From IMG/VR virus record IMGVR_UViG_3300044613_002919, positions 1 to 22,831 of that record: a stretch of 22,831 bases of DNA; one strand, written 5' to 3'. The position numbers and the translations under genes were made by a program. Of this stretch, positions 1,881 to 19,501 are shown piece after piece. The first letter of the stretch is position 1; the number at the start of each line of letters is the position of its first letter. The stretch is from a virus. A model generated the notes under the pieces. It was not told the origin of the DNA, searched no databases, and worked only from the letters and a program-made list of their open reading frames with translations.

Positions 1881-2267
1881 TTAACTTATTTCAGTCCTTC
1901 CATTACCTAAATCATTACGATCAACTCTGCGTGGTCTTGTATCATAAGGTTGATTAGCTTCCCATTGCTCATAATTTTCGTTTAGAATGTTACGACAAAT
2001 ACTTTGAAACCATCTATCCACAATTTGATCGTCGGTATCATCTTTCTTTTGCATATAACCGGCTTTGACCAATCTAGCAACAAAAACATCATTCCAATCT
2101 AGTTCAAAGCTTCCGTTACCAATATCATCTGGATCTAACTCGACACTTATAATGTTAATGTAAGGTTCGCCTGCTTCAGTAGCTAACTCTTTTGGTGTCT
2201 TTGTTTTAGATTTTACACGCGGTGTTTCTAACTTAGGTTCTGGCTTTTTCTTTAACCAATCAAACAT
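1881..2267 (-). CDS. Conserved-looking hypothetical protein downstream of queE
   Basis: I do not recognise a family for this 128-residue protein. It begins MFDWLKKKPEPKLETPR, a Lys/Pro-rich probably disordered N-terminus, and then has a folded-looking region containing ELDPDDIGNGSFELDWND and VDRWFQSICRNIL. The end is polar and Arg-rich. The ATG at 2267 is preferred over an upstream in-frame ATG at 2279. It is preceded by GGGGA at good spacing and overlaps the queE stop in the TAATG arrangement used elsewhere in the window. Its place directly after queE and before an SGNH-like gene shows co-transcription, not function. Confidence 0.7.
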   Translation of the reverse strand: MFDWLKKKPEPKLETPRVKSKTKTPKELATEAGEPYINIISVELDPDDIGNGSFELDWNDVFVARLVKAGYMQKKDDTDDQIVDRWFQSICRNILNENYEQWEANQPYDTRPRRVDRNDLGNGRTEIS

Positions 2268-3112
2268 TATGTTCCCCACTCATTTTTAAATAATGGCACC
2301 TGCAATCTATCAGAATATCTTAATCCATTACGCATTGCTAGTTCTGCTACTCTGCGATTGTTTAATGTATATACATTCTCAACGCCGCCAACTGGCATTA
2401 AGTATACCGGCCCTTCAAATCCTGCATCTCTATATTCTTGAACTGCTTTTAATGCATCTTCAACATCTTCATCTGTTGCAACTACAAATTTTAGATATAC
2501 ATATCCGTATTCATCATACTCTTTGATGATATCCGGACGAATCGCATCCTTCCATGCCTCCCCCGAACACGGAAGTTTAGCACTAACACTAAATGTGAAT
2601 GTATTAAACCCTTTGTAATGATGCCAGTTACGATGTATCCAAGTTTTTAATTCATCTGTAAGTTTTTGTGTACCGTTCGTTTCGAATGTTATTTCTTTTA
2701 GCGAACGCATACTAGGGTTTTCTAGTAGATCAATGTATGCTCGTTGCCATCCTAGCAATGGTTCGCCGCCAGTGATTACCAAGTGTTCATCGCGCCATTC
2801 GCCGTGTGGAAGTATTTCCATAATCCGATCGACAATGGCATCAGACTCTAACATGGGACTTAGATCTTTGAATCTTGGATCCCAACTTGCGTAACTATCA
2901 CATCCAGTGCTTACTAACGGTAGTTCTTCGTACTTGGTATATTGGTCAGGGGTTACTTTATTTGCTTCCTCGCTTAATTGTCCCCGAGGCATGCCAAATC
3001 CAGCACATCGAAAGTTACAACCAAATGTGCGAAGGAATACACTAGGCACACCCATGTATCTACCTTCGCCTTGTATTGAATAAAATAGTTCTGCTACTTT
3101 GATTTTACTCAT
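2267..3112 (-). CDS. queE: QueE-like 7-carboxy-7-deazaguanine synthase (radical SAM)
   Basis: A radical SAM enzyme of 281 residues that converts 6-carboxy-tetrahydropterin to 7-carboxy-7-deazaguanine (CDG). The substrate-binding motif SIQGEG is at 12-17 and TGGEP at 114-118, both typical of QueE. The cluster cysteines are C32 and C36 (CNFRC); the third is apparently C71 in CDSYASWD, which resembles the CDS..(T)W that follows the normal QueE cluster. The spacing is thus CX3CX34C instead of CX3CX2C. The start at 3112 is chosen because MSKIKVAELFYSIQGEG is the normal N-terminus and the ATG overlaps the queD TGA (ATGA). It follows queD in one operon, as expected for the pathway. It may feed DNA modification through the DpdA-like protein at 15648-17186. 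Confidence 0.88.
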   Translation of the reverse strand: MSKIKVAELFYSIQGEGRYMGVPSVFLRTFGCNFRCAGFGMPRGQLSEEANKVTPDQYTKYEELPLVSTGCDSYASWDPRFKDLSPMLESDAIVDRIMEILPHGEWRDEHLVITGGEPLLGWQRAYIDLLENPSMRSLKEITFETNGTQKLTDELKTWIHRNWHHYKGFNTFTFSVSAKLPCSGEAWKDAIRPDIIKEYDEYGYVYLKFVVATDEDVEDALKAVQEYRDAGFEGPVYLMPVGGVENVYTLNNRRVAELAMRNGLRYSDRLQVPLFKNEWGT

Positions 3113-3624
3113 GCAAACAAATCCTCGTTCCATTCTCTATGGCCTTCTCTGAAAGCCATATTGCTCTGTGTTTCTCTTACTTCTACTCTATAGCACCAAA
3201 GTCGTTTTGCTTCACTAGGCCCCCACATGTCAGGGATATAAACTCCGTTTACATATTTGTATAGCATATCAGCTAGACCTTCGCAACCTAAACGAGGCAG
3301 CACAACAATCTTGGCCATATTCTTTTCTTGTAGCAGTTGGAAGGTTGCCATTTCTGGATCATCTTGGGCAACAATAAGCGTATGATCAAATTGATCTTCT
3401 AAAATCGTCTTGAGTTCTTTGAGACCACCATAGTCAGCGGCCCAATTGCGCACATCTAAATGATCTGTGCCAAAGAAAAATTTCATTGAAAAACTATAAC
3501 CGTGGATTAGATTGCAATGACTGTCAGCACGCCACTGACGATATGCACACGGAAATGCGTCGTGATATTCTTTGGTGCTGGTGTATTTGTAAACTCTTGA
3601 TGGATATGTTTCGTTAAGATACAT
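3109..3624 (-). CDS. queD: QueD-like 6-carboxy-tetrahydropterin synthase
   Basis: A T-fold protein of 171 residues acting between FolE and QueE (dihydroneopterin triphosphate to 6-carboxy-tetrahydropterin). Matches to QueD are catalytic C37 four residues before H41 (CNLIHGY), the catalytic D80-H81 pair (FDHTLI), the pterin-binding Glu E115 in CEGLADMLY, and E151 in VRETQSN. Two of the usual three zinc histidines differ: the family HGH is HGY (Y43), and the upstream His, eleven residues before the catalytic Cys, is C26. The start is supported by AGGAG followed by AATTCA before ATG. This is the first gene after the late-promoter motif at 3710-3717 and it overlaps queE by ATGA. The family is well supported; full activity is less certain because of the altered ligands. 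Confidence 0.85.
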   Translation of the reverse strand: MYLNETYPSRVYKYTSTKEYHDAFPCAYRQWRADSHCNLIHGYSFSMKFFFGTDHLDVRNWAADYGGLKELKTILEDQFDHTLIVAQDDPEMATFQLLQEKNMAKIVVLPRLGCEGLADMLYKYVNGVYIPDMWGPSEAKRLWCYRVEVRETQSNMAFREGHREWNEDLFA

Positions 3625-3720: not shown

Positions 3721-4251
3721 TCAACTTTGCCACCAATTTTCCCAAGGAAAAACTATCCAACAAGGATCATCAAGTTTATTAATATTGCGTCCGCTGTAAT
3801 CAATTTTTTCGTAAGGACTATCTTCGTTGTTTATGAGTACAGCAAATCTTACATTACTGTTCCAAATAACATTCCAGGCAGCATGATTAGGCAAACAACC
3901 ACTGGTCCAATCTTGCCTTATCCACTCAAGTGTAGCACCAGTATCGTTTATGTCATCTACAATTAATATCTTCTTACGATAGGCAGGATCAGTGTCAGCA
4001 TTGCCTGATCCTCTTTCGTCTTTTGGTACGTATCCAAAAGCGTCTTCGGCCATCCAACAGTTACTTTCTGATCGCGGTTTAAGAGTCTCCATTGGTACAT
4101 CAAAATAATGGCTTATCATTGTTGCTGCTGCTAATCCGCCACGAGTCAATCCTACCACGTAATCAGGTCGCCAATCACTATTAGTAATATCTCGGCAGAG
4201 TTTATGTACAAGACTCTTAAACTCTGCATCGGAAATAACTAACTGTTTCAT
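3721..4251 (-). CDS. Phosphoribosyltransferase, Gpt/purine type
   Basis: A type I phosphoribosyltransferase of 176 residues. The PRPP-binding loop ILIVDDINDTGATLE occupies about 95-109, with the two adjacent acids and the DTGAT turn. The N-terminal half has VGLTRGGLAAATMI (33-46), which resembles the start of bacterial xanthine-guanine PRTases. Such enzymes attach purine bases to PRPP and so salvage guanine, xanthine or hypoxanthine; the base specificity cannot be read from the sequence. The ATG overlaps the stop of the 62-residue gene as TAATG. Lying next to queD-queE and in the same window as a base-exchange enzyme that would release guanine, a guanine-salvage role is attractive but inferred. 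Confidence 0.8.
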   Translation of the reverse strand: MKQLVISDAEFKSLVHKLCRDITNSDWRPDYVVGLTRGGLAAATMISHYFDVPMETLKPRSESNCWMAEDAFGYVPKDERGSGNADTDPAYRKKILIVDDINDTGATLEWIRQDWTSGCLPNHAAWNVIWNSNVRFAVLINNEDSPYEKIDYSGRNINKLDDPCWIVFPWENWWQS

Positions 4252-6066: not shown

Positions 6067-6762
6067 TTATCTTGGTGCAAATTCTTGTTGAAGCTTGATG
6101 TTATCAAAAAATTCTTTCTTGGTGCTCTGATCGTCTTTAAATGCACCTCTTAACACTGTGGTCTGGGTGAGACTACTGTGTGCCATAATTCCTCTATTCT
6201 CGCAGCATCCATGGGTGGCCTGGATATATACAGCCACATCCTTACTTCCAGTTGCAAATTCAATTTCTCGTGCAATGTCCATGCAAAGCTCTTCTTGTAG
6301 CGTTCCACGACGAGCGCACCATTGGGCAATTCGGGTGTATTTAGAAAGTCCGATGAGTTTGGGACCAGCAATAATACCAATATATGCAACGCCTGTAACA
6401 GGTTGGTGATGATGACTGCAAACACTCTTAAGCTCGGAACGGACGACGAGCATGCCGTCATAGGCTCCTTCAGTATCATTTGGAAACGCAGTTGCGTTAG
6501 GTGTCGGATCATATCTACCTGCCATTAATTCGTTATAATACATTTTAGCCAGACGCCTTGCTGTACCTTGACTGTTAGGATCCGTTTCTCTATCAATGAG
6601 TAATGTGTCTAACACTTTTTCAAATGCTTCAGTAGCCTCGTTAATCAGATGTTCCTTGTCGGATGGAGCAATGTAATCACTGATATTGTCGCCAGCCCAA
6701 TATCTTTTGCCATCTCGTTTCATGCGTTCTTTAATTGCCTGTGCTAGATATTTCTCTGCCAT
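6067..6762 (-). CDS. folE: GTP cyclohydrolase I (FolE)
   Basis: It converts GTP to 7,8-dihydroneopterin triphosphate, the entry step for both folate and 7-deazaguanine synthesis. The 231 residues compare with about 220 in bacteria. Zinc and catalytic residues are present: C115, H117 and H118 in VCSHHHQPVTG, and H184 and C186 in HGCCENRG. KLIGLSKYTRI (135-145) is the usual GLSK/R-type segment before the Zn cysteine. The Glu of the common CEHH motif is Ser here. GGAG lies just before the ATG, directly after the aminotransferase stop. With queD and queE in the same window, a role in base modification is more likely than folate supply. Confidence 0.92.
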   Translation of the reverse strand: MAEKYLAQAIKERMKRDGKRYWAGDNISDYIAPSDKEHLINEATEAFEKVLDTLLIDRETDPNSQGTARRLAKMYYNELMAGRYDPTPNATAFPNDTEGAYDGMLVVRSELKSVCSHHHQPVTGVAYIGIIAGPKLIGLSKYTRIAQWCARRGTLQEELCMDIAREIEFATGSKDVAVYIQATHGCCENRGIMAHSSLTQTTVLRGAFKDDQSTKKEFFDNIKLQQEFAPR

Positions 6763-7347
6763 TTATTCTCCGATGATTGTAATATCTCTAAGATCTGGAT
6801 ATTCGTGGTATTTAGGCGGTTCAGTTACTGAGTATAATTTTTCCAAACCAATTTGTGCATCTTCAATAGTGGGCCTATAATGGTAGCCAACCTTGAAAAT
6901 ACGTTGTTCCTGCCACGGCGAAACGGATAAGTCTCTACCATCATACCTACACTCCAGTAAAGCATCGTATGCTTCCTTGTCATCTAATAGTATAGCACCA
7001 CCGTGACCTATCTGTAAAGGCTTGTTGTGACCAAAACTTAAACATTGCATCTGACCTGGTCTATACATTCCCTCTTCTAAACGTCGAGCACTATCCCAAA
7101 TATCCGTGCCATAGAATCTATATTCTCCTATCCATTTTTCTGGCACAAGTTCGTATTCAATACCTAATTTGTGCATGGTCATTGGAATAGAAAGATAGGT
7201 GTATGCTGTGAACTGCACTCGCTTTACTTTTCGATATCGCAAACATAGTTCAATTGCATGTGTGCAGCAATCGGTCATGATTGCATAAGGTGCTCCAGTT
7301 TTGGTCGCTAGTAATTTTTCGAACTGTGCTATTTCTTCAAATGCCAC
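6763..7347 (-). CDS. DegT/DnrJ/EryC1-like aminotransferase, short form
   Basis: A PLP enzyme-like protein of 194 residues, about half the family's usual length of roughly 370-400. It has the catalytic-Lys motif SFGHNKPLQIGHGGA (K109), the PLP-ring Asp motif IWDSARR (D85), and YHYRPTIEDAQIGLEKL (155-171). The last matches the family GYNYRM..QAAIGL.QL segment. The C-terminal small domain is missing. The only usable start is GTG at 7347, eleven bases inside the end of galE and without a clear Shine-Dalgarno. The frame is open further upstream to a TAA but has no ATG, GTG or TTG there. These enzymes aminate keto-sugars on nucleotide carriers. The pairing with an epimerase and a glycosyltransferase fits sugar synthesis. 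Confidence 0.78.
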   Translation of the reverse strand: MAFEEIAQFEKLLATKTGAPYAIMTDCCTHAIELCLRYRKVKRVQFTAYTYLSIPMTMHKLGIEYELVPEKWIGEYRFYGTDIWDSARRLEEGMYRPGQMQCLSFGHNKPLQIGHGGAILLDDKEAYDALLECRYDGRDLSVSPWQEQRIFKVGYHYRPTIEDAQIGLEKLYSVTEPPKYHEYPDLRDITIIGE

Positions 7348-8302
7348 TTGTGTACCATTTATACGCTGAATCGATAATTTGATCGATGGTTGAATAATTT
7401 GGTTTCCATTTTAAAACCGACTGTGCTAATGTTGCATCGGCAATCAATTGATCAGGATCGCCAGGTCTACGTTCTCCTACTATTAACTTTAGTGGACCGT
7501 ATTTTAAATTAATATAATCAACAATTTGTTGATTGCTAATACCGCTGTTAGTACCCAAATTAAACACTGCAAATTGTTTATTAGTGTTCCATTGTATTGC
7601 TCTATAATGTGCATCTGCTAGATCCCAAACATGAATATAATCTCTTATGCACGTTCTGTCTGGTGTGTTAAAGTTTATTCCGTTTAGTGTAAAAAATTGA
7701 TCTCGAATTCTTGATTCTAATAATCTTGCTATAATATGTCCTGCTCCAGGTGCTTGGCCAAGGTCAAAGGTGAGAGGTTCTGCACCTGCTGCATTAAAAT
7801 ATCTAAAGCATACACTAGGTAACTCGTATGCTTGATTATAGTTTAATAGTACCTGTTCAATTATATCTTTTGTATGGCCATACGGACTGATAGGTTTTAT
7901 CCTGTCTGTTTCAACCAATGGAACATGATCAGGGTTACCGTACACACTAGCACTAGAACTGAAAAGAACAAGCGGTTTCTTTTTATAATCCTTAACATGA
8001 TTTAAAAATGTAATTGTCTTTGCAACATTGTTATCATAATATTTTGCAGGATCTTCGACACTTTCTCTGACACTAATATCTCCGGCACAATGCACAATGA
8101 CGTCTGGTTGTATTTCATCTAACCATAGCAAACTTTGTCGTGACACATAATCGGTATGTAAAAAACCATCAACGTTTTTAAGTGTATGATCTCTACGTTC
8201 TCGATCGATTACATACACTTTTGAATTTTCAATGTTTTGTTTTAAATAACGAGAAATGTGGCTACCAATATAACCACATCCACCAGTAACAATTATTTTC
8301 AT
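7337..8302 (-). CDS. galE: NAD-dependent sugar epimerase, GalE-like
   Basis: An extended short-chain dehydrogenase/reductase of 321 residues. It shows the dinucleotide motif TGGCGYIGSH (6-15), the SSSASVYG segment (115-122) and the catalytic YGHTK (Y141, K145), with upstream S116-S118. RYFNAAGA and GERRPGDPDQLIAD in the C-terminal half are hallmarks of UDP-glucose 4-epimerase. It would interconvert UDP-glucose and UDP-galactose, or the N-acetyl forms. Length is close to bacterial GalE (about 338). It overlaps the aminotransferase gene by eleven bases and is followed by sugar-active genes, suggesting production of a nucleotide sugar for a phage or host glycan. The exact substrate is not determined. 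Confidence 0.85.
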   Translation of the reverse strand: MKIIVTGGCGYIGSHISRYLKQNIENSKVYVIDRERRDHTLKNVDGFLHTDYVSRQSLLWLDEIQPDVIVHCAGDISVRESVEDPAKYYDNNVAKTITFLNHVKDYKKKPLVLFSSSASVYGNPDHVPLVETDRIKPISPYGHTKDIIEQVLLNYNQAYELPSVCFRYFNAAGAEPLTFDLGQAPGAGHIIARLLESRIRDQFFTLNGINFNTPDRTCIRDYIHVWDLADAHYRAIQWNTNKQFAVFNLGTNSGISNQQIVDYINLKYGPLKLIVGERRPGDPDQLIADATLAQSVLKWKPNYSTIDQIIDSAYKWYTSGI

Positions 8303-8325: not shown

Positions 8326-8517
8326 CTACAATAAAGACGAAACGTAACGATATAACTTGAATATAACAAATAAACATATAAAAAACACAATCAAATATAA
8401 TGTGTCTGAAGAATCATCTTTTTGTATCGGAGGATCGCTAAAACTAGTGCATTGTGGACATCTAACCGCATAAAACGGCATCTTGGAATGACAATAAACA
8501 CAAGTTCTATAATTCAT
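8326..8517 (-). CDS. Small zinc-ribbon membrane protein (63 residues)
   Basis: The N-terminus carries two CxxC pairs (C6/C9 and C20/C23), a zinc-ribbon knuckle. A polar linker rich in Asp and Ser follows, then a single membrane helix near 40-58 (LYLIVFFICLFVIFKLY). The likely topology is a soluble metal-binding head on a membrane anchor. The ATG shares a base with the glycosyltransferase TAA (TAATG). Such small proteins are common in phage genomes and no function is known. The Cys pattern and helix are seen directly. Confidence 0.72.
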   Translation of the reverse strand: MNYRTCVYCHSKMPFYAVRCPQCTSFSDPPIQKDDSSDTLYLIVFFICLFVIFKLYRYVSSLL

Positions 8518-9710
8518 TAATACTTGCTTTCGTGAGTATGTTTTCTATAGTCTGTACTCATACGCAACCACCTTTCTCCGTTACCTTCGAGAATATCGCA
8601 GATGCGATCAATTGTTCCGTTGTTCCACGCACTAAATCGACCCATGTTGTTGTGCGGATGTTGTAAGAGGGGTACAAGTTTTTGTACTGCATCTCTAATC
8701 GACCACGGGACATAAAGTCTCTCGCTATCATTTGCAAAAGCTTCTGGGAAACTTCTGTATGCGGGGTATAAGATATTAGCCCCAAGAGCGTCAGCTTCAC
8801 TTGCTGTGTTCGAAACCCAATCCTGAAGAGCACAATTAAACAACACTCGCGTATCATTGAGTAGAGCATAGTAATCATTCTTTTCAAGATCTTCATATAC
8901 AGTCAGTTTACCTTCTGCTTGTAGTCTGCGTGTACGCTCCATATACGAACTATTGTTACTACGTAACTTGCTGCCGCTGAATACACAAAATTCCACACGA
9001 GGCCAATCATTGTAAGGTAGTGATTGTAGTCTATGATATTCTTCGATAAGATCCATGTAGAAGTCGGGCTGTTTCTCTTGATCCCATCTAGCAGCAAAAC
9101 CTACACGGTAAGCTCTATCTTCGAATTTCTTTAGCTCACCGGGTACACGACCACGCACTTCTTCTTTACCAAATGCCAGTCCACTGATATTATACAGTCT
9201 ACCTCGCCATCCTGCAACCTTCATGTGCATGACCATCTCTTCATTGGTAGCAAGAATAATATCTGCAAATGAGTCTACCATCTTTTCGTAATGTGCCATC
9301 CATTCCTGCATGCCCCAGACATGAACAAAGTCATCTGGGTCAATAGTTTGTGCAAGACAACGAACGGCAATGCGAGGACGCATAGTAGGATCAATTTGAT
9401 CGAGAATGTAAGGTAAGCTCTCGATGCCGGGTTGAAACATGTCTTCAAAGTAGATAATGTCTTCACTAGTAACTTCTCCTGCTTTCATTTTACGAACTAG
9501 ATTCATCAACTGGCTCATGCCAAAATATGTACGACCATGTGCGTCTAACACTTGGCCGGTTACGATAGCTTGATCATTGCTCAGTGTTTCACCAGATACG
9601 ATTTCATAGTCGATACCACGACGTTCAAATACTGCACGATTCCACTCTTGAAGCTGTAATGTATATCTTGCTTTGTAAGGTTCAAGACCCATGTACCATA
9701 ATTTACGCAT
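8517..9710 (-). CDS. Glycosyltransferase, GT-B / family 4-like
   Basis: A 397-residue protein. The second half has features of GT-B glycosyltransferases: VGFAARWDQEKQPDF (about residue 200 on, the start of the donor domain), and later SNTASEADALGANILYP, which resembles the E-x-x-A-x-G-x-x-I donor-binding loop. The start at 9710 is preferred to an ATG three codons upstream at 9719. GGAGG then sits nine bases before the chosen ATG, and the ATG overlaps the TAA of the preceding gene as TAATG. With GalE and the aminotransferase downstream it probably transfers a sugar to a glycan, protein or DNA base; the acceptor is unknown. The glycosyltransferase call is probable, the subfamily uncertain. Confidence 0.68.
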   Translation of the reverse strand: MRKLWYMGLEPYKARYTLQLQEWNRAVFERRGIDYEIVSGETLSNDQAIVTGQVLDAHGRTYFGMSQLMNLVRKMKAGEVTSEDIIYFEDMFQPGIESLPYILDQIDPTMRPRIAVRCLAQTIDPDDFVHVWGMQEWMAHYEKMVDSFADIILATNEEMVMHMKVAGWRGRLYNISGLAFGKEEVRGRVPGELKKFEDRAYRVGFAARWDQEKQPDFYMDLIEEYHRLQSLPYNDWPRVEFCVFSGSKLRSNNSSYMERTRRLQAEGKLTVYEDLEKNDYYALLNDTRVLFNCALQDWVSNTASEADALGANILYPAYRSFPEAFANDSERLYVPWSIRDAVQKLVPLLQHPHNNMGRFSAWNNGTIDRICDILEGNGERWLRMSTDYRKHTHESKY

Positions 9711-9973
9711 TATAACCATCCTCCGGCTCTAGCAATGCCAACAATACCTACCAAAATCCAAAAACCATTTAGTAATGTGTATGCTTTATCTTTCTTAAGT
9801 GTAGCACAGTAGGTTAACAAGATTGCATCCAAAGTGTTTACAATCCAAACTAACATAAATGGACTTGCTGGTCCTAACCATGACACTAGAGTAAAACAAA
9901 AAATACGCATAACAACCCCGGCCATTTCCATAGCCGGAATATTATTTTTTATAAAATTAATTATAGGTTGCAT
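9710..9973 (-). CDS. Small membrane protein (87 residues), paralogue of the one at 22203
   Basis: Three hydrophobic segments are visible: about 17-33, 38-57 and 66-83. The second half reads PASPFMLVWIVNTLDA, then a basic loop (LKKDKAY), then LLNGFWILVGIVGIAR. This aligns almost without gaps with the C-terminal half of the small membrane protein at 22203-22493 (Pro-rich turn, basic loop, LLN, final helix ending in Arg). AGGAA precedes the ATG at good spacing. It lies two bases after the radical SAM gene at 9976-11184. It weakly recalls small transporter halves, but I would not assign a function. Confidence 0.7.
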   Translation of the reverse strand: MQPIINFIKNNIPAMEMAGVVMRIFCFTLVSWLGPASPFMLVWIVNTLDAILLTYCATLKKDKAYTLLNGFWILVGIVGIARAGGWL

Positions 9974-9975
9974 TA

Positions 9976-11184
9976 TTATTCCTTTGTGTAATTTTTTATT
10001 AAATTATAAAATTCGGGCACAAAATCTTGCATTCTGATATTCTTTAAATGATCCTGTTCTATAATTTTACTTAAAAATTTTTCAAAAAGCAAGTCATCAT
10101 TTTCATTATGCGTCGATATAAAAATTGAATTGTAGCTGTTACTAATTTTGTTTTTAATTTTTTTAGGTAAACTGGTAGGACGAAAATAATCCGGACTATA
10201 TATACTATTGTTGAGATATTTGATTTTGTTTGTGTTAAACCATTCAACAGTTTCGCTATAATAAAGCATGTTGATATTGCTTAGAGTAAATGAAGCACTT
10301 AACTCTATATTATTAGTTCGGTATTGCTCAATGTTCTCTAACACAGTGTTCCATTTTAAGGGATATCTCAAATACTCAAATGTTTTCTCTATACCGTCAA
10401 TACTTAGGCAAAAGTTAAGTCTACTAAAATTTTTTAAAATTTTAATTTGTTCTTGATTTAGTCTAATAGAACCATTTGTAGTAAAACTTATAAAACAATC
10501 AGTGTTTCCATATTCAATCAATTTTTTTAGTATTTCAAAATTTGTCCTACTCAGTAAGGGTTCGCCTCCGCGAAAATTTACTGACCGTGCATTAGTATAA
10601 TCTAAATCAATTTGATCCAGCAACAAGTTCCAAGGTTTGTTTACTAAACGTCCTTGTTGTTTCTCTAGACCGATCCAAGCACTACTAGACGCTCCGTCGC
10701 AGGTTATGCAGGTAGCATTGCAGGTGTTATTTGTATCAATCTTGTAATGCAACAGACTATAATTGCCATCATTGCATTCGTTTTCAATAACTTTTAAATC
10801 ACGATTCAGAACTATATCAATAAGATTGTTTTTAGTTATCCTATCACTTACAATGCCCTGATCTTCCAATGTCCAGCATCTGTAACACGCCGCAGGTCTT
10901 ATCCCCGATAACATTTTTTGTTTAATTTGTTCTATATTTTCTTTAGAATAATCAATTAAACAACACTCAATGTTTGATGGATATTCTATTCCATAAAAAG
11001 GAAGCACACAAAAAGCAGGGTTATTAAATTTTTCAACTTTACTAAATGTCTCGTTAATTTCTTGGTAAACAAAATCAGGTACATTGTAATGTTGAATAAA
11101 GTTATCATAGCTAGGCCAATCTGCTCCAGCCAAAGCCGTATAATCTCTTTCTGTTATAGAAAGATATTTTGAAACTTCTCTCAT
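9976..11184 (-). CDS. Radical SAM protein with N-terminal auxiliary-cluster domain (I)
   Basis: A 402-residue protein. The radical SAM cluster motif CNATCITC (C155, C159, C162) is followed by RGGEPLL (205-211), the SAM-binding GGE motif, and by LSIDGIEKTFEYLRYPLKW, typical of peptide-modifying SPASM/twitch relatives. Before the core lies a second cysteine set: C59, C74-C75 and C100-x2-C103. It resembles a SPASM/twitch auxiliary [4Fe-4S] domain placed at the N-terminus. The same order occurs in the protein at 11856-13049. The substrate is unknown; related enzymes modify peptides, proteins or RNA. No iron-sulfur partner or precursor peptide is obvious nearby. The start is one base after the TGA of the 73-residue gene (TGAAATG). 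Confidence 0.82.
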   Translation of the reverse strand: MREVSKYLSITERDYTALAGADWPSYDNFIQHYNVPDFVYQEINETFSKVEKFNNPAFCVLPFYGIEYPSNIECCLIDYSKENIEQIKQKMLSGIRPAACYRCWTLEDQGIVSDRITKNNLIDIVLNRDLKVIENECNDGNYSLLHYKIDTNNTCNATCITCDGASSSAWIGLEKQQGRLVNKPWNLLLDQIDLDYTNARSVNFRGGEPLLSRTNFEILKKLIEYGNTDCFISFTTNGSIRLNQEQIKILKNFSRLNFCLSIDGIEKTFEYLRYPLKWNTVLENIEQYRTNNIELSASFTLSNINMLYYSETVEWFNTNKIKYLNNSIYSPDYFRPTSLPKKIKNKISNSYNSIFISTHNENDDLLFEKFLSKIIEQDHLKNIRMQDFVPEFYNLIKNYTKE

Positions 11185-11185
11185 T

Positions 11186-11407
11186 TCAAAGTTGTTTTTC
11201 TTTTTTCACATACCACATATTTCGTGGTTCACGGCCTCTTAAGCTACGTTGAAATTCGCCCCATGGCGATTTTTCGTTGTACAAGTGTCGTTCGTCGAAT
11301 GGATGACCATACTGTACACAAAATTCACGATAACGATCAAGATCGTCGAAGATGGTTGACACTTCTGGTTTCATTACCAGATATTTTTTGAGCCATTTAG
11401 CGGCCAT
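11186..11407 (-). CDS. Small hypothetical protein (73 residues)
   Basis: A basic, aromatic-rich soluble protein beginning MAAKWLKKYLVMKPEV and ending in RGREPRNMWYVKKEKQL. The central YGHPFDERHLYNEKSPWGEF is distinctive. AAGGAGAT lies at good spacing before the ATG, which supports the gene. I do not recognise a family. It sits between the T-fold protein and a radical SAM gene. It could be an accessory subunit or peptide substrate of the latter, but there is no direct sign of this. Confidence 0.7.
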   Translation of the reverse strand: MAAKWLKKYLVMKPEVSTIFDDLDRYREFCVQYGHPFDERHLYNEKSPWGEFQRSLRGREPRNMWYVKKEKQL

Positions 11408-11417
11408 TTTTATCTCC

Positions 11418-11846
11418 TTAAATTTTTATTGATAGAGAGGGTTGATGTGTATTATAAGTGATCTCACAACCGTTTTCGTTGTCTTCACTTACGCTTATTG
11501 TAACATTTCTTTCTGGATATCTGTTAGCAATCTGGAGGTACAAATCATCTGCTATCATTTCGCATGATTTATAGTCAAGATCTAAAGTGGAATTGCTATA
11601 CAGACTCTCCAGCCATCTTTTAAACTGGATGAATTCGATGTCCCGGTCATTATGGAACACATCGATTGACACCCTAAAGTGGAAGATATGACGATGAGGA
11701 TAACCAAGAAAAGATACGTCCGCAAGATGAGGATTCTCCAATGCTGCTGGGTATTTATGAATACCTTCACGGTTAAATGTTATCCAAATTTGTCTTGCTG
11801 CACGTTCTAGAATTCTTTCTGCAGTTTGTCTTTGCTCTAGATTCAT
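11418..11846 (-). CDS. T-fold protein, QueD-like paralogue (142 residues)
   Basis: It resembles the QueD/FolE T-fold but is not a standard QueD. Shared features are a His pair in YPHRHIFHF (H51, H53), where QueD has HGH, and DIEFIQFKRWL (69-79), where QueD has its DF..LK helix. Others are SCEMIADDLY (94-103), nearly the same as CEGLADMLY in this window's QueD, and VSEDNENG with E121 at the pterin-binding Glu position. The catalytic Cys before the His pair and the catalytic Asp-His dyad are missing; LDLDY stands at the latter place. It could be a pathway variant such as a CDG decarboxylase or other late step, or a binding subunit. That is inference from fold and context. Confidence 0.65.
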   Translation of the reverse strand: MNLEQRQTAERILERAARQIWITFNREGIHKYPAALENPHLADVSFLGYPHRHIFHFRVSIDVFHNDRDIEFIQFKRWLESLYSNSTLDLDYKSCEMIADDLYLQIANRYPERNVTISVSEDNENGCEITYNTHQPSLSIKI

Positions 11847-11855
11847 AATTCTAAT

Positions 11856-13049
11856 TTAATTAAATGAGTTGTATATGTCAGGAAAAATTTTTTTACTGTC
11901 TAAATTACGTCTTTGATCTAAAATTTGTAAATCTTGTAATAATGTTGATTTGTAATTAGAATTGTTATTTAAAAAAGAAATTAAGGTATTAAGTTGATTG
12001 TTATACCTTTCATCCTTTGAATTATACAAAGGTGTATTATTGTCAATAAGGTTTTGTTTGATTATACTAACAGTTTCATCTATGTAAGTCTGTGGTAAAC
12101 TTCTCGGATCTAAGAAATCCTTTTTTTGTCCTGCATGAACATAGTAAATGTTGAAACAATTTTTTTCAAACCCTTCTTTTGTTAATGTTTTTATGGCTTG
12201 AAAAATTGTTTTAGCATTCAATGATGTGTAAGTCATACTAAAACTTATATTGTCTACGCCCACGGCGTTCTTAAGTGATAGTAAATTGCTGTAGAAATTA
12301 TTCCAATTACCTGGATATCTGATGTAGTTGTAACGGTCTTCCATGTCATCAAAACTAACTATCCAGTGACAGCTTTTAAATTTTAATAAAGTTTCATAAA
12401 TTTTGTTGTTTTTTATCAAAGAAAGATTTGTATTAACACTGATATTACAATTTAAATTTACTTCTGCTAATTTATCGAGAATAATTTGATTTTCTTTTAT
12501 TAACAACGGTTCGCCACCAGCTATGTAAAGATAATTTATTTTTGAAATATTGTCAAGATAATATTGAATCAAATCATCAATTTTATCTTTGCCCAATGCA
12601 TCGTGCTGATTTAGTTCTTCGGCCCAAAGTGAACTACACAATGGACCGCAATAGACACATGCATAATTACATGTGTTTCTAAATCTAAGATCGGCGTATC
12701 TATATTCAAATGCATTCACATCAGAATAAATCTCTTTGCTGTTATTTTCCTGAAATTCAAGAAAATCATAACGCATTGTGCTTTTATAGTTAAAATTCTC
12801 AGACTTAATTGTATTATCTTGAGGGTAGCATGCCCTACACCCAGCTACTTGTTTTCCTGATAACATATCCTGCTTGATTTTTATAGCTTTATAACCATTT
12901 AAAATCGAATATATTGAATCTTGATTAAGATCACCTAATTCATTTTTTGATTGACAGCAACTTTCTACTCTACCATCTCCCCAAATATAAAAAGTTGTCC
13001 ATGGTGCAGGACAAAATGCTGTATTGTTATAGAATTCTTCGTTAGTCAA
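11856..13049 (-). CDS. Radical SAM protein with N-terminal auxiliary-cluster domain (II)
   Basis: A 397-residue protein with the same design as the one at 9976-11184. N-terminal cysteines C13 (FCPAPW), C31-C32 (RVESCCQ) and C71-x2-C74 form a likely auxiliary cluster site. The radical SAM motif CNYACVYC (C127, C131, C134) and AGGEPLL follow. The WGDGRVESCC region matches the opening of SPASM-type domains. The start is TTG at 13049, overlapping the TGA of the 171-residue gene (TTGA); no ATG occurs before the conserved FCPAPW. It lies directly upstream of the T-fold gene. The reaction is unknown; peptide or nucleobase modification are both possible. Confidence 0.8.
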   Translation of the reverse strand: MTNEEFYNNTAFCPAPWTTFYIWGDGRVESCCQSKNELGDLNQDSIYSILNGYKAIKIKQDMLSGKQVAGCRACYPQDNTIKSENFNYKSTMRYDFLEFQENNSKEIYSDVNAFEYRYADLRFRNTCNYACVYCGPLCSSLWAEELNQHDALGKDKIDDLIQYYLDNISKINYLYIAGGEPLLIKENQIILDKLAEVNLNCNISVNTNLSLIKNNKIYETLLKFKSCHWIVSFDDMEDRYNYIRYPGNWNNFYSNLLSLKNAVGVDNISFSMTYTSLNAKTIFQAIKTLTKEGFEKNCFNIYYVHAGQKKDFLDPRSLPQTYIDETVSIIKQNLIDNNTPLYNSKDERYNNQLNTLISFLNNNSNYKSTLLQDLQILDQRRNLDSKKIFPDIYNSFN

Positions 13050-13561
13050 TTTACTATTATATCCTGTTTATATTTTGACCAATCAGTGAAACAGTCTTCT
13101 CTGCGCATTAGGTTATGAACACTATGACACCACACACCTGGATTAGTTGCAGCAAAATCTTTGTCGTCTAGTTTAATTGTAGCATTATATCCTAGTTGTT
13201 GTATATAGGGCATTTTAACCGATATCATTGGAATAAATTTATTATGTTCTGGTAATCCAGTTTCTAATAGACCTTCTGCGTTATTGACATCAATGTCTAA
13301 TGTACACCAATATCCACGACCAATAAAAGGCATAATCATATTCTCCCATCTAGTCCAATCTGAACTGTCTGCCCGGCTGTTAGGAAAACTTTGATTAGCA
13401 CCAAAATAAATGTGTGTGCATTTATGAGCAATGGCTGCTGCCTCGATTAAGTCTTGTTCTTGTACACCAATTACGAACAGCGTCTTTTGACCGTATGCAG
13501 GTGTGTGCTCAACTTCTACACCTACAAACAGTTTTGTATTTTCAAATTTATCTCTATTCAT
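13046..13561 (-). CDS. Hypothetical protein (171 residues) in the radical SAM cluster
   Basis: No family recognised. It is a compact soluble alpha/beta protein starting MNRDKFENTKLFVGVEVEH. Glycine-bearing beta-alpha turns (LFVIGVQEQDLIEAAAIA, HIYFGANQSF, YWCTLDIDVNN, MISVKMPYIQQLGYNATIK) look like a partial TIM barrel. C and H residues near the end (WCHSVHNLM, REDCF) could bind metal. It overlaps the upstream 128-residue gene by eight bases and the downstream radical SAM gene by TTGA, so all three are one translational unit. A link to deazaguanine or radical SAM chemistry is suggested only by place. Confidence 0.72.
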   Translation of the reverse strand: MNRDKFENTKLFVGVEVEHTPAYGQKTLFVIGVQEQDLIEAAAIAHKCTHIYFGANQSFPNSRADSSDWTRWENMIMPFIGRGYWCTLDIDVNNAEGLLETGLPEHNKFIPMISVKMPYIQQLGYNATIKLDDKDFAATNPGVWCHSVHNLMRREDCFTDWSKYKQDIIVN

Positions 13562-13940
13562 GATTTGATAACAAGTAAAGTAATAAGTTTTGACTTACAG
13601 CGTTTGAATGAATATTAATTATACATGAACCTACTTCGTCAATCCAACCGTAAGTTTTTTTTATTTTACCATTTACAAAATATTTACAATATGAATCAAA
13701 ATGGTTGAGTTCAATATCACCTAATCTAATTTTAAAAATATGCAAATAAGAATCTAAATGCCTTTTTTCATTGAAATTAACAACAATTTTATTTTTAACA
13801 TTGATGTTTAAATCAAGAGTATAAACAATTTGATTTGGCTCTAAATATGTAAATATTCCGTTTGGGGCAATCAAAAAATCATCTAATTCTACTTTATTTA
13901 GATTGAGAAATATAGATAATTTTTTTTCTGTTTTGATCAT
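13554..13940 (-). CDS. Hypothetical beta-rich protein (128 residues)
   Basis: No family recognised. It looks rich in beta strands (VYTLDLNINVKNKIVVNF, HIFKIRLGDIELNHF), with a terminal segment YGWIDEVGSCIINIHSN followed by a short helix, like a small beta-sandwich. Its start overlaps the end of the cobalamin-type radical SAM gene by 47 bases, an unusually long overlap here. GAGG lies about 15 bases upstream, which is far for a Shine-Dalgarno. There is no later Met, so the only ATG is used. The gene is likely but the start is less sure. Confidence 0.58.
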   Translation of the reverse strand: MIKTEKKLSIFLNLNKVELDDFLIAPNGIFTYLEPNQIVYTLDLNINVKNKIVVNFNEKRHLDSYLHIFKIRLGDIELNHFDSYCKYFVNGKIKKTYGWIDEVGSCIINIHSNAVSQNLLLYLLSNHE

Positions 13941-15441
13941 ATATTTTTTTAAGATCCTCTAACTCGCCAAAATGTTTTTTTAAATCAACCACCCAAAAGA
14001 AAGTATAACCAAATTCTATAGCTGATTCAATTATTTTTTTATATCTGTGATATCGTACATCAAAAGTATTATGGGGATTTGCTACTGTTGTCCAAAAATA
14101 ACGAGAATAAGGATTTTTTGCATCAGTATCGTTCCACTGAAATTCATCAATAAATTTTTGCTCTCGGGTCAAAGGAACAATATCATTTAATTGAAATGGT
14201 AATGTAATAGCTAGTCTTATCATACCGTTTTTATTAAATTTTTTGCTTCTGTCTAATAATTCTATTGTTTCGTTGAAATCTTTATCAGTTTCAGATGGAT
14301 ATCCTACAATAAGTGACCAACTTTGCATAATACCATTTTTGTGCAATTGATGTACACCATAATCTAAATCATCATTGGAAAAATTCTTACGCATGTGTTT
14401 TCTTACAGATTCACTACCTGATTCAACACCTATACTCCAGCGATAACATCCGGCCTGACCGGCCAATTCAAAATCATATTCTGGCATGGATTTTCTATCT
14501 CTAAAAATAGCATAACCTCCGTACCTTATTGTTTTTGGTATTTTTTCAACTAATAATTGATTCATTTTACGATAATTTGGTATACTGCCATTGATTAAAT
14601 TATCAGTAAATTCAAAATTAGTATTGCCAGTTTTATGATATATATCTATAATATCGGCAGCAACATTTTCGCCACGTCTAAAAATATATTTTGGCCAATA
14701 CTCCGGCACATCACAAAAACTGCAATTTCTTACACAACCCTTACTGGCTGTAATAACCATAGATCTGGGATCATAATATCTTCTAGTTTTATCTTCCGCA
14801 ACTGCTATATTTTGTAGTTGTTTATAATAATCAAAGTTGTAATTGCTCCAATCCGGACTAGGAATATTGTCAAGATCTTCACTTGTTTGACTGGCTGAAA
14901 AAATTAATCCCACTGACTTAGATTTAATTGCTCTTATAATTTCTGTTTCAGCATCTCCTACAATAACAATATCTGCTAATCCGTGATCTATGTATTTTTT
15001 ATAATGTGGTTTATGTTCAATATTACAATTAGATTCTAAACCACGCCCGCCTAACATTATTTTAACATCAGGTATATATTTTCTTATATACGGAATTAAA
15101 AAGTAACTAAAATTTATACTTTCAGCTGTAAAAATTGATAAGCCAATTATTGTAGGGTCAAACTCTTTTTTAATGGCAATTAATTTTTTTTTAATAAATT
15201 TTAACGTGTCAACTGTTGGCCTAAAATAGTTTAAATCTTTATCTATTGCGCCCGAAGATAAAAATAATTTTAAGTTATTCCAATAAGGTTTGTTGACAAA
15301 TGCAGTTGCAAATTCAATACTAAGATCAACTCCGGTTGCTTTTATACCAGCATTGTTTAAACATGCACTAAGAAGAGCAGGCGCCATAGCAGGCACCATT
15401 TCATTGTAAGGAACACTTACAATAACAACATGTTCAGTCAT
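13894..15441 (-). CDS. Cobalamin-binding-domain radical SAM protein
   Basis: A 515-residue protein laid out like class B radical SAM methyltransferases and relatives. The N-terminal Rossmann-like B12 domain spans about 1-185 and contains VPAMAPALLSACL, IIGLSIFTAES, IMLGGRGLE and DIVIVGDAETEI. The radical SAM core has CVRNCSFCD (C236, C240, C243), RWSIGVESGSESVRKHMRK and SLIVGYPSETDKDF. No DxHxxG motif is seen in the B12 domain, so any cobalamin would lack that His ligand, as in many family members. The substrate is unknown. It overlaps the DUF465-like gene by eight bases and lies two genes after DpdA in transcription order, which makes tailoring of the modified base an option. Confidence 0.8.
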   Translation of the reverse strand: MTEHVVIVSVPYNEMVPAMAPALLSACLNNAGIKATGVDLSIEFATAFVNKPYWNNLKLFLSSGAIDKDLNYFRPTVDTLKFIKKKLIAIKKEFDPTIIGLSIFTAESINFSYFLIPYIRKYIPDVKIMLGGRGLESNCNIEHKPHYKKYIDHGLADIVIVGDAETEIIRAIKSKSVGLIFSASQTSEDLDNIPSPDWSNYNFDYYKQLQNIAVAEDKTRRYYDPRSMVITASKGCVRNCSFCDVPEYWPKYIFRRGENVAADIIDIYHKTGNTNFEFTDNLINGSIPNYRKMNQLLVEKIPKTIRYGGYAIFRDRKSMPEYDFELAGQAGCYRWSIGVESGSESVRKHMRKNFSNDDLDYGVHQLHKNGIMQSWSLIVGYPSETDKDFNETIELLDRSKKFNKNGMIRLAITLPFQLNDIVPLTREQKFIDEFQWNDTDAKNPYSRYFWTTVANPHNTFDVRYHRYKKIIESAIEFGYTFFWVVDLKKHFGELEDLKKIYDQNRKKIIYISQSK

Positions 15442-15646
15442 CTGAGTAGCCAGTACGCTGGGTATCTTCGTCCCATTGTAGTTTGTTTAATCTGCTTATC
15501 TCATCTTTTAATTGTAATTTTTTCTTTTTGAGTTCAGTTAAATGCTCGATATCTACACCTGGATGATTGCTTTGCATTTCGTTAATTTGTTTGTCTAATA
15601 GTTTATGCATCTCTTCCAAATGTTTAATTCTACCTTTGTAACTCAT
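15434..15646 (-). CDS. DUF465/YdcH-like small coiled-coil protein
   Basis: A 70-residue helical hairpin. HLEEMHKLLDKQINEM and HLTELKKKKLQLKDEI carry the Leu/Lys pattern of DUF465, with its K-K-x-L-x-L-K-D-E-I signature. The start at 15646 is chosen over a longer in-frame form reaching 15814. GGAGG sits ideally before this ATG, which follows the dpdA stop by one base (TAATATG), while the longer form would read through the dpdA coding sequence. Function in bacteria is unknown. It may be an adaptor or RNA/DNA-associated small protein. Confidence 0.78.
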   Translation of the reverse strand: MSYKGRIKHLEEMHKLLDKQINEMQSNHPGVDIEHLTELKKKKLQLKDEISRLNKLQWDEDTQRTGYSDD

Positions 15647-15647
15647 A

Positions 15648-17186
15648 TTATTCCTCCAAGTGTGATTGAATGATATTAGTGGCATCAGAATCTGATATTT
15701 CGTTTTCAGTATCTTCCACAGTTTCAAAAAGAGCATTATACATTGTGTTGCTATTTTTTGTTTTTTTACCTTTAAATCCTCTTGTTCCGACAATGTCCAT
15801 CCAGTATCTATCATAGTGTTCTATAATTGACTCAGCAGTGTTACGATCCGGTGCTGCAAATATTGCATCGACTATGTCTTCAAATTTTGTATGATCGCCA
15901 TTGCGATGCCAAAGCATAGCAGGTCTTTCTCCTGAATCAAATTTTTTATTTGCACGTTGAACTGATTCTATATGCATCCATACATTATGCCCCATCATTA
16001 ATGCATAACTAAAACTATCCCAGCTGGTTTTACCTTCTTTACCATTCTTATTTAGATCTCCAGGTTTGTATATACAAATATCTTTTATTTGTAAATGCCG
16101 GCTGATAGGAGACTCATCAAATATATCAAAAATACCATCCTGTAAGACAGCATCTCTGAATGTTCTTGTATCAGTTGCATACTTTTTATCATCTGCGCTA
16201 GGACTCATCCTATAACACCATTTTGCATCGTGAGGTAAATCAATGTGATGATAGATCTGACCGTTAGCTGTGGCAAGAAATGGACTTGCACAATCAAAGC
16301 TGATGGTGAAGTTGGGGTTAACATATCTACGTATTGCTCGTTGTATTACAGTGAGTAACACAGCCCATTCAAGTTTACTAGTTCCCAAGAAGTGCATCCA
16401 GTCGTGTTTTCCCTCTTGCAATAAATTATCGTATCGCAGTGACACAAGACGTTTAAGAACCAAATGAATATCACACATGTTTTGACCACCCATAGCCCAA
16501 CCATCAAAATGTGTATCTGGATATCTGGAAGGATCACAGAACTCTTTCATTTCCTGATACCATTCTTCGGCTGATGTGTGATTATCGCCTTGTAGTACAT
16601 TTAAAAATTTTGCACCACCATTGTTCTTGCCCTTGCGGTGCTGCATAAAATAATGGTTGTTATATTTGGTAGCATCAACTGCTTCTTGTAATGTAGTAAT
16701 GCCACATGCCTTACTTGCCTTCTTGTCGTGAATAACCCAAGTTGGAATATCAAGAATCATTCCATAATCAGCAATACCATCTAACCATTTTAACACAGAC
16801 GATCGCTTTTTTTCTGCTTTGACACAACCCGAGTTGGCTTTCCAGTCACCCTCCCACAACCCCTTGGCGATCTGGAATCCACCTGAGTCGCCTAGCATAA
16901 ACGTTCCGATTTCGCGCTTACGAACCATGTCTTCGCTGGCGTCTTCTTTAGTCAAATCTAGGTTTGCGTGTCCGCCTGAGTAGAGACTCCATCGGTACGG
17001 AAACAGGGCTTGTTTGCTATTGAGCCAATTGAATTGCTCCATGTCTTGTAATGCCTGTGGCATACGAGCAGGATCAACATAGTCATTGTTAACACGTTGT
17101 TTTCCTATAAAAGTTGCGTAAAACCCAGATATAGCAGGCAAGAATACTGCATAGTCTGATTGTTTTGAAGTTAAGTTATCCTGCAT
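15648..17186 (-). CDS. dpdA: DpdA-like DNA guanine transglycosylase (TGT fold)
   Basis: A 512-residue paralogue of tRNA-guanine transglycosylase that would swap guanine in DNA for a 7-deazaguanine base. TGT landmarks are in order: GDSGGFQ (99-105, general-base Asp D100), LDIPT (145-149), LNVLQGD (195-201, the TGT QGG loop), DGWAMGG (228-234, TGT GYAIGG) and SFDCASPF..TANGQ (296-310). The last matches the FDC..P.R..RNG nucleophile segment, with D298 as candidate nucleophile. The CxCxxC zinc motif of bacterial TGT is not seen. No tRNA-binding PUA domain is evident in the C-terminal 200 residues. It starts at ATG 17186, overlapping the sulfotransferase-like gene by eleven bases. With folE, queD and queE present, DNA rather than tRNA is the likely target. 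Confidence 0.85.
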   Translation of the reverse strand: MQDNLTSKQSDYAVFLPAISGFYATFIGKQRVNNDYVDPARMPQALQDMEQFNWLNSKQALFPYRWSLYSGGHANLDLTKEDASEDMVRKREIGTFMLGDSGGFQIAKGLWEGDWKANSGCVKAEKKRSSVLKWLDGIADYGMILDIPTWVIHDKKASKACGITTLQEAVDATKYNNHYFMQHRKGKNNGGAKFLNVLQGDNHTSAEEWYQEMKEFCDPSRYPDTHFDGWAMGGQNMCDIHLVLKRLVSLRYDNLLQEGKHDWMHFLGTSKLEWAVLLTVIQRAIRRYVNPNFTISFDCASPFLATANGQIYHHIDLPHDAKWCYRMSPSADDKKYATDTRTFRDAVLQDGIFDIFDESPISRHLQIKDICIYKPGDLNKNGKEGKTSWDSFSYALMMGHNVWMHIESVQRANKKFDSGERPAMLWHRNGDHTKFEDIVDAIFAAPDRNTAESIIEHYDRYWMDIVGTRGFKGKKTKNSNTMYNALFETVEDTENEISDSDATNIIQSHLEE

Positions 17187-17802
17187 AAAATTTCACAGAT
17201 TCAATAAGTTGATAATCTTCGGAAAAATATTTTTTAAGATTTTTCATGTATTTAGAATTATTTTTTAGTGCGTTACGAAAAATATTTTTAAATCTTTGAC
17301 GTTCTTCACTTGATTCAGATGTATGTTGATATTCATAATTATGATATCTATTATTCATACCATGTTCTTTTAAAAAAGCACTAAAATTAATTCTATAATT
17401 TTCATCGCATAAAAAGAAAGTGCAGTTTGACAATGTTAAACCTTCAATGAATAGAACCTGTTTTTCTGTGTGATCGTCTAGTGCTATTTTATCAAAAATA
17501 ATATCATAGAAATTTTTTGAAAAATAAGCAATATCTAAACTATTATGATACAAATACATGTATTCGGCGATACCACTTAACCATCTTTCAATTGGATCTC
17601 TTAAAACTATTAATGATTTTTTATAATAAAGATTGTCGGTATGATAATTGTAGGTTTCCCAATTCCAATCTTTAAGATTTGGTTTAGTCCACGAACTTGC
17701 ATTTTTAGGTATATATACATACATTAGATCTGTAGATGGATGCGACATACATTCTCCAAAAACATGACCTTTGTTGATGTAATACTCGAAAAATTTTTTC
17801 AC
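17176..17802 (-). CDS. Sulfotransferase-like protein
   Basis: A 208-residue protein with both PAPS-binding signatures of sulfotransferases. The 5'-phosphosulfate loop is MYVYIPKNASSW (27-38), and the 3'-phosphate motif is IVLRDPIERWLSG (65-77). It is short for the family (usually 250 or more), with an apparently reduced C-terminal half. The start is GTG at 17802, overlapping the clamp TGA (GTGA). It would transfer sulfate from PAPS to a sugar, protein or other acceptor, if PAPS is available in the host. Lying between the sliding clamp and dpdA, it may belong to the modification block or to the glycan genes further downstream; neither is shown. Confidence 0.68.
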   Translation of the reverse strand: MKKFFEYYINKGHVFGECMSHPSTDLMYVYIPKNASSWTKPNLKDWNWETYNYHTDNLYYKKSLIVLRDPIERWLSGIAEYMYLYHNSLDIAYFSKNFYDIIFDKIALDDHTEKQVLFIEGLTLSNCTFFLCDENYRINFSAFLKEHGMNNRYHNYEYQHTSESSEERQRFKNIFRNALKNNSKYMKNLKKYFSEDYQLIESVKFYAG

Positions 17803-18571: not shown

Positions 18572-19501
18572 TTAGTTTTTTGATTTAATTTCGCCAAGGA
18601 CCTGACCGGCTTTGTTTGTTGTAAGTATACCTGGCTTGGTAAATTCAACTATAGAAAAAGAAGGGTTTATATCAGCTGAAAATGATTTTATAAACCCTAT
18701 ACTTTCTATCATTGGCACAAGTATGCTTTTTGGGACGTAAGTCATAAAGTAGGATTCTGCGTAGGCTGCTGGTATTGGCAAATCTGCGTTGTTATAGGTA
18801 AAAAGAACGGTTCCGCCTGGTCGCAGCCAATTAAAGGATTGGATCATTAATTGTTTAATACTATCAAGGCTTAAGTAGTTAAAAAAATTATAACTAAAAA
18901 TAAAACCAAATTGATTCAAAGGTAAATTATTAATTTTGAAATAATCGTTTATTATATATTTTCGTACTCTATTTTGATATAAAGATGGGAATTGTTGTAT
19001 CGAACTTTCTATAAATTCTGGAAAGTAGTCAGATATGTATAAAGGATCATTGGCCACTAGATGTTTTGTCCACTCGCCATCTCTACAACCTAATTCTAGT
19101 GCAGGAAATTTCCAACTACTGTGATGGCTGATCCTTTGAAACAACATAGTTTCAAATTCGTCATTTTTTGCCATTACTCTTACTTTTCTAATAGCATCGA
19201 TATTATGATAAAATAATTCAACTTGATAGTTGTCAGAAAAAAATTTGATAGATAAGTGATTTATTTTATCTTGAACAATGTTGATTACTTTATTTAGATA
19301 TTCTAAATCTGAACTAAGATAACCTAAACTTTGTTTATGCTGATTTATTAAATTTGTAAGTTCAATTTTTACATCAGATTCTTCAGTTCTTTGTAAGAAC
19401 TCAAGTCGATCTAAATTGCTTTCAATTTCTCTTTTGATAATTGATAAGTCAATAGAACTACTAAGAGAATTTCTTAATTGTACTAATTGTTGTAAGTTCA
19501 T
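18572..19501 (-). CDS. Class I SAM-dependent methyltransferase with N-terminal coiled coil
   Basis: A 309-residue protein. Residues about 1-90 are helical and probably coiled coil. The methyltransferase domain has motif I LELGCRDG (135-142), the SDYFPEFIESS acidic-loop region (157-167) and WLRPGGTVLFTYNN (225-238), the post-motif typical of Rossmann methyltransferases. FSYNFFNYL stands where the catalytic segment of motif IV is expected; it is not a DPPY/NPPY, so N6-adenine or N4-cytosine DNA methylation is not indicated. The substrate is unknown. It lies between the polymerase and clamp genes, an unusual place for such an enzyme. No clear Shine-Dalgarno precedes the ATG. Confidence 0.72.
   Translation of the reverse strand: MNLQQLVQLRNSLSSSIDLSIIKREIESNLDRLEFLQRTEESDVKIELTNLINQHKQSLGYLSSDLEYLNKVINIVQDKINHLSIKFFSDNYQVELFYHNIDAIRKVRVMAKNDEFETMLFQRISHHSSWKFPALELGCRDGEWTKHLVANDPLYISDYFPEFIESSIQQFPSLYQNRVRKYIINDYFKINNLPLNQFGFIFSYNFFNYLSLDSIKQLMIQSFNWLRPGGTVLFTYNNADLPIPAAYAESYFMTYVPKSILVPMIESIGFIKSFSADINPSFSIVEFTKPGILTTNKAGQVLGEIKSKN

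Follow-up and report, generated by a model that had tools for sequence, protein, structure and literature searches.

The virus record IMGVR_UViG_3300044613_002919 from IMG/VR was analyzed over positions 1 to 22,831 (the window, 22,831 nt), in which all 31 genes considered lie on the minus strand. We propose that it carries a phage pathway for 7-deazaguanine modification of DNA that works without QueC. In this pathway the T-fold protein Tf142 and the enzyme-like protein h171 would replace QueC, DpdA, a distant relative of tRNA-guanine transglycosylase (TGT), would insert the base, and the glycosyltransferase (GT) GT400 would glycosylate it, with cargo genes lodged between these core genes (Table 1). 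We put the probability of this reading at roughly 0.55. FolE, QueD and QueE yield 7-carboxy-7-deazaguanine (CDG) by an established pathway (PMC13329287), and all three of these preQ0 pathway genes are in the window. The three enzymes would make CDG, and Tf142, together with h171 where present, would act in place of QueC and convert CDG to the base actually used. DpdA, judging from its family, would exchange guanine in DNA for that base. The linkage of GT400 suggests that it would put a sugar on the inserted base, the GalE-like epimerase shaping the nucleotide-sugar. We infer every chemical step after CDG, DNA glycosylation included.

Gene content was compared across 80 viral loci bearing dpdA. 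Fifty-five of them run from the sliding clamp gene to GT400, a selection that by itself fixes the presence of dpdA and GT400. Tf142, h171 and h73 are present in all 55. With h171 as a second anchor, 77 loci were obtained, 76 of them with DpdA; the 27 that are full (a locus of roughly 20 kb) all contain DpdA, Tf142, h73 and the GT. The other genes of the interval are patchy in the 55-locus set: the DUF465 gene was found in 22 loci, the sulfotransferase in 18, relatives of radical SAM II in six, the B12-type radical SAM enzyme and h128 in two each, and radical SAM I in none. Dereplication from 55 to 46 loci leaves this picture unchanged, and the locus is thus split into core and cargo.

The DpdA motifs GDSGGFQ and ISFDC...ANGQIY are invariant and align with the TGT active site, so that both motifs of that site, DSGG[FL]Q and FDC...NG with the nucleophilic Asp, are present. 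Residues D100 and D298 are invariant among 40 homologues (aligned segment of E. coli TGT: FDCVMPTRNARNG). Pairwise hhalign comparison with E. coli TGT runs through FDC...NG with an E of 0.0019, and the catalytic core also aligns with TGT-like phage proteins. A second, indirect connection to E. coli TGT goes by way of the DpdA type found in ACP17, X1 and BUCT-ZZ01; for ACP17 gp123, the match to the NCBIfam TGT superfamily model falls under the cut-off. DpdA has no Pfam match, and PF01702 was not detected even at E 10, a setting at which the control genomes do match. Sequence-only PDB searches with DpdA, h171 and Tf142 gave no real match. Membership of DpdA in the TGT superfamily rests on profile-profile comparison, as expected for a distant homologue, and the identification of this gene in an earlier note, made from the letters alone, is supported by the motifs and the alignment to E. 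coli TGT.

No QueC was seen in the window, which is a genome fragment. The QueC family PF06508 was not found in 14 of 15 long relatives, nor in ACP17, phiST, PA5oct, RHph_I1_18, Phosso, Bakedbeans, Ahp1, BUCT-ZZ01 or Paride, and no full-length QueC match was found in any Tf142 isolate examined. Weak matches occur on another large contig (17 bits) and in X1 (16.2 bits, under the cut-off). Strong QueC matches were obtained in CAjan, 9g, nt-1 and PhiXhv-12, all four without Tf142. Tf142 and full-length QueC look mutually exclusive in this sample. In Xanthomonas phage X1 (L247 7843-8373), a PAPS-reductase/PP-loop protein sits inside the deazaguanine cluster and is a possible QueC substitute.

A separate QueD gene accompanies Tf142 in the window. 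The AlphaFold2 model of Tf142 (mean confidence, pLDDT, 88) is a T-fold that Foldseek matches to E. coli QueD at E 2.9e-5, in agreement with the fold assigned earlier; QueD is its closest match, and VIA structure comparison gave Z 10.8 over 109 residues at 2.6 A. Invariant across ten lineages are H65, E71, C95, E121 and the three residues of the His triad (H30, H51 and H53). Tf142 shares T-fold, His triad and anchoring Glu with the QueD/6-pyruvoyltetrahydropterin synthase family; in contrast, the catalytic Cys of QueD (CxxxHxH motif) is replaced in all ten lineages by an invariant Leu47, and Cys95 and His65 are new invariant residues. Tf142 is related to QueD but differs from it in the active site, and is not QueD itself. 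It is present in 11 checked phage genomes.

The second candidate for the conversion of CDG, h171, has a mean column identity of 64% with many invariant residues. Its AlphaFold2 model is an alpha/beta fold (pLDDT 81) with no confident match; Foldseek against the PDB returned nothing below E 0.05. Strand motifs noticed by eye prompted the idea of a QueE origin; comparison with a QueE-like partial barrel gave VIA Z 6.1 over 132 residues, a score tied with unrelated folds, and hhalign to QueE an E of 0.23. Because Tf142 is fixed, h171 is found in several lineages and QueC is missing, the data suggest that Tf142 and h171 make a usable base from CDG. The small protein h73, core in this lineage, was not detected in the other isolate phages.

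The profile of GT400 (A5) matches the group 1 GT of PDB 7ec1/7ec7, which is TarM-like, at E 4.4e-5; its single-protein Pfam match is sub-threshold. Its homologues have in common an LEPxExRYT-like stretch at the start and a C-terminal half that is GT4-like. In ACP17, PA5oct, X1 and BUCT-ZZ01 they adjoin Tf142 and DpdA or lie close by; in Phosso the homologue adjoins Tf142, and DpdA lies about 170 kb off. Among 50,697 phage records, GT400 as a query gave six matches, all in Tf142 carriers, and the Phosso GT gave 20, of which the 16 near-full-length ones are all in Tf142 carriers and the remaining four are partial matches in PhiXhv and Ep032 phages. The hypergeometric probability is 3e-52 for 16 of 20 records and 3e-18 for five of seven lineages collapsed by hand, both rough values as records are not independent. 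As an independent test, seven contigs from metagenome-assembled genomes (MAGs) were found by Tf142 alone; six have DpdA and the GT, and the seventh, 5.3 kb long, is a fragment carrying QueD and QueE. Since the DpdA proteins of the GT/Tf142 phages are of two different types, the association holds across DpdA types. The association of the GT, Tf142 and DpdA genes, which recurs in unrelated phages, is well supported.

The GT relative of PhiXhv-12 adjoins a PIG-L-type deacetylase gene and is two genes from a Gat-QueC fusion, that is, again by a deazaguanine gene. In this Xanthomonas phage (L262 7618-10852) the fusion, annotated GlmS, is followed by the deacetylase and then by the GT400-like GT, a gene set that suggests a preQ0 or archaeosine base bearing an amino-sugar. 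In BUCT-ZZ01 (L251 9340-10680) a second GT-B glycosyltransferase, besides the GT400 homologue, was observed beside DpdA.

Several points weigh against the proposed pathway. An ordinary glycosyltransferase would find no free hydroxyl or amine on CDG, only a carboxylate; therefore the product would be a glycosyl ester, or Tf142 and h171 would have to create some other acceptor. The acceptor group is the weak point of the glycosylation reading. GT400 is only 20-25% identical to the enzymes of ACP17, PA5oct, Phosso and X1, and GT-B enzymes form a large superfamily. In RHph_I1_18, phiST, Bakedbeans, Ahp1 and D479 no GT was detected in the vicinity of Tf142, so Tf142 does not need the GT. In PA5oct the h171 gene is apart from the cluster, and the loci of BUCT-ZZ01, X1 and Phosso yielded no h171. 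With regard to QueC, D479 has a partial match of 32.8 bits to the C-terminal part of the family only, and one long relative contig has a match of 25.1 bits.

The absence of QueC and the Tf142 phages with no GT nearby would fit a simple deazaguanine in DNA: CDG would be inserted unchanged, or decarboxylated by Tf142 or h171, to give dCDG or dDG, and the GT would act elsewhere, for example on a protein of the phage or on the host surface. Both dDG and dCDG have reportedly been found as phage bases. A surface role, however, leaves unexplained why the GT adjoins or lies close to Tf142 in every GT-bearing Tf142 lineage examined, and why a distant GT relative stands by Gat-QueC in PhiXhv-12. We regard this alternative as rather unlikely.

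The earlier note had described ten genes at 9976-17802 as one translationally linked run and had suggested that its radical SAM enzymes and sulfotransferase modify the base inserted by DpdA. The run is real, and every gene is present on the minus strand. The overlaps on which coordinated synthesis was argued were also found (4 nt, GTGA, between the sulfotransferase and clamp genes; 11 nt between DpdA and the sulfotransferase; 4 nt, TTGA, between radical SAM II and h171), but they do not set the run apart because overlap is the rule across the window, where 22 of 30 adjacent gene pairs overlap or are at most 10 nt apart. The run as such is not conserved in related phages: core genes occur in all 55 loci, against two for the B12-type enzyme, six for radical SAM II, none for radical SAM I and 18 for the sulfotransferase, and most relatives have DpdA without these enzymes. 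Homologues of the B12-type enzyme were found in loci where dpdA is absent from the surrounding 10 kb. Relatives of this enzyme occupy seven loci with no deazaguanine core genes nearby; three of the contigs carry dpdA at a different place, and a 172-kb contig bearing a homologue yielded no dpdA. As pathway steps, the radical SAM enzymes and the sulfotransferase are rejected on their distribution across loci, and they fail the refuting condition that the earlier note had set for itself. The idea of further enzymes around DpdA survives, with a different set of conserved partners. Of these, Tf142, h171 and h73 lie inside the interval, and GT400 and the GalE-like epimerase fall outside it.

A methyl- or sulfo-bearing deazaguanine peculiar to this phage would be in keeping with the interleaving of cargo and core genes here, and with locus L019/L165, where the same slots are taken by the B12-type radical SAM, by h128 and by a twitch radical SAM. 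It is very improbable given the patchy occurrence, the unlinked B12-type relatives and the relatives of the twitch enzymes at other junctions. Those of radical SAM II sit at several different junctions, and twitch radical SAM matches occur in 12 of the 27 full h171-anchored loci, anywhere in the roughly 20 kb and at varied positions; no relative of radical SAM I was found in the viral-contig scan. Third-position GC (GC3) of the cargo genes is 0.17-0.26, below most core genes. Because of this patchy distribution, the shifting positions, the unlinked B12-type relatives and the lower GC3, the radical SAM enzymes and the sulfotransferase are read as cargo. The three extra radical SAM enzymes, h128, the DUF465 protein and the sulfotransferase are best read as exchangeable cargo and not as pathway steps.

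What such cargo does is a question separate from the core. It may form part of a lineage-specific set for surface or peptide modification (twitch radical SAM plus sulfotransferase), unrelated to DNA, that uses insertion-prone junctions. Core-gene junctions are either tight or carry inserts of up to 3 kb, with inserts at nearly all of them, and 12 radical SAM genes have been reported in one T4-like phage from the environment (PMC5332604). Against this, no substrate peptide or surface locus was identified, and we consider the chances evenly poised. Such a role concerns only the cargo and is compatible with the QueC-less pathway. In PADLOC the core genes match no defence family; the twitch radical SAM enzymes match the viperin model weakly, which is read as superfamily similarity.

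Phage-encoded 7-deazaguanine systems with the same FolE, QueD and QueE and a TGT-like DpdA have been described (Hutinet et al., 2019, PMC6884629). The present system differs from them in having no QueC and in having Tf142, h171 and a GT4-type glycosyltransferase instead. Tf142 was not found in CAjan, 9g or nt-1, and tblastn revealed no GT relative in them. Bipper is a DpdA phage lacking only QueC, for which CDG was suggested as a possible base (Hutinet et al., 2019, PMC6884629). GT400 would resemble the alpha- and beta-glucosyltransferases of T4 and the T-even phages as a phage GT-B enzyme sugaring a modified DNA base; the T4 enzymes, however, act on hydroxymethylcytosine, whereas GT400 is GT4-like (TarM-like match) and linked to deazaguanine genes. 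Phage deazaguanine DNA modification is thus already known, and its QueC-less form with a GT and a T-fold protein appears from sequence to be a new variant. Neither this variant nor a glycosylated deazaguanine in phage DNA was found in the literature searched, which did not cover Cui et al. (2023), and certainty about novelty is lowered to that extent. Papers on Paride, MIJ3 and PA5oct, when searched for terms of DNA modification, yielded no measurement of it.

More broadly, a widespread QueC-independent branch can be tentatively put forward, with chances slightly short of even, in which Tf142, as a QueD-derived enzyme, would turn CDG into a new base and a dedicated GT4-type GT would glycosylate it after insertion by DpdA, giving a sugar-bearing deazaguanine in phage DNA. 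If so, deazaguanine replacement and DNA glycosylation, two protection strategies, would be joined in one base, and known DNA chemistry would be extended. The proposed pathway offers a testable answer to the fate of CDG in QueC-less DpdA phages. The same module is present in phages that are in culture (PA5oct/Paride, ACP17, X1 and BUCT-ZZ01), making it directly testable by mass spectrometry.

Table 1. Features of the window in order of position.
Feature	Coordinates	Strand	Status	Evidence and occurrence
QueE, CDG synthase (radical SAM)	2267..3133	-		phrog_2076, 181.8 bits
QueD, CPH4 synthase	3109..3624	-		PF01242, 52.9 bits; phrog_2389
Phosphoribosyltransferase	3721..4251	-		PF00156; 4/7 MAG loci; also in PA5oct cluster
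FolE, GTP cyclohydrolase I	6067..6762	-		PF01227, 134.7 bits; 26/27 loci
Half-length DegT/DnrJ aminotransferase-like protein	6763..7347	-	lineage-conserved	PF01041, 50.8 bits; 25/27 full h171-anchored loci
GalE-like nucleotide-sugar epimerase	7337..8302	-	core in this lineage	phrog_540; 26/27 full h171-anchored loci
GT400, GT4-type GT-B glycosyltransferase	8517..9719	-	core, outside 9976-17802	27/27 full h171-anchored loci
Radical SAM I (twitch, NF033640)	9976..11184	-	accessory cargo	0/55 loci
h73, small protein	11186..11407	-	core in this lineage	55/55 loci
Tf142, QueD-type T-fold without QueD Cys	11418..11846	-	core	55/55 loci; fold model
Radical SAM II (twitch, NF033640)	11856..13049	-	accessory cargo	6/55 loci, between clamp and GT
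h171, enzyme-like protein	13046..13561	-	core	55/55 loci
h128	13554..13940	-	accessory	solely with B12 radical SAM (loci L019, L023); GC3 0.17
B12-type radical SAM enzyme	13894..15441	-	accessory cargo	2/55 loci; GC3 0.18
DUF465 small coil protein	15434..15646	-	accessory	22/55 loci; Pfam 44.5 bits, cut-off 25
DpdA, TGT-like DNA base exchange enzyme, DSGGFQ type, 512 aa	15648..17186	-	core	TGT motifs; hhalign
Sulfotransferase-like protein	17176..17802	-	accessory	18/55 loci, 24-67% identity; GC3 0.19

The cargo proteins other than h128 had also been assigned to families in the earlier note. Both ordinary radical SAM enzymes exceed the curated cut-off of 170 bits for the twitch-domain family NF033640 (208.5 and 241.2 bits), and the DUF465 assignment is likewise confirmed by Pfam. 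The frame of the DUF465 gene from 15814 is too long; the domain begins at residue 64, and the ATG at 15646 with an upstream GGAG fits better. For the B12-type enzyme the radical SAM domain is clear (60.9 bits), and the B12-binding match is sub-threshold (E 4.8e-4). Its match to the PhpK-type B12 radical SAM methyltransferases (TIGR04479) reaches 115.8 bits against a cut-off of 600, so that superfamily membership alone stands. The match of the sulfotransferase to PF03567 is sub-threshold (20.1 bits, gathering cut-off 22), which leaves the protein as sulfotransferase-like only.

By DNA polymerase, the nearest kin of the phage are Sinorhizobium phage Phosso and other large phages, and contigs bearing relatives reach 347 kb. 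The window DNA had no near match among phage records. A 9.9-kb viral contig (L084 3383-4246) encodes a QueE identical to that of the window and may be a near-identical relative. The DegT/DnrJ-like protein is about half the normal length, yet this size is kept among relatives (192-205 amino acids). Between the PolB and clamp genes (18572-19501) lies a gene whose product resembles SAM-dependent methyltransferases and has a helical region at its N-terminus; it has matches in 74 of the 80 relatives, mostly at just 20-64% identity. A multi-pass membrane protein, by eye like Bax inhibitor-1/YccA, is encoded at 5379-6146 and overlaps the FolE gene by 80 nt.

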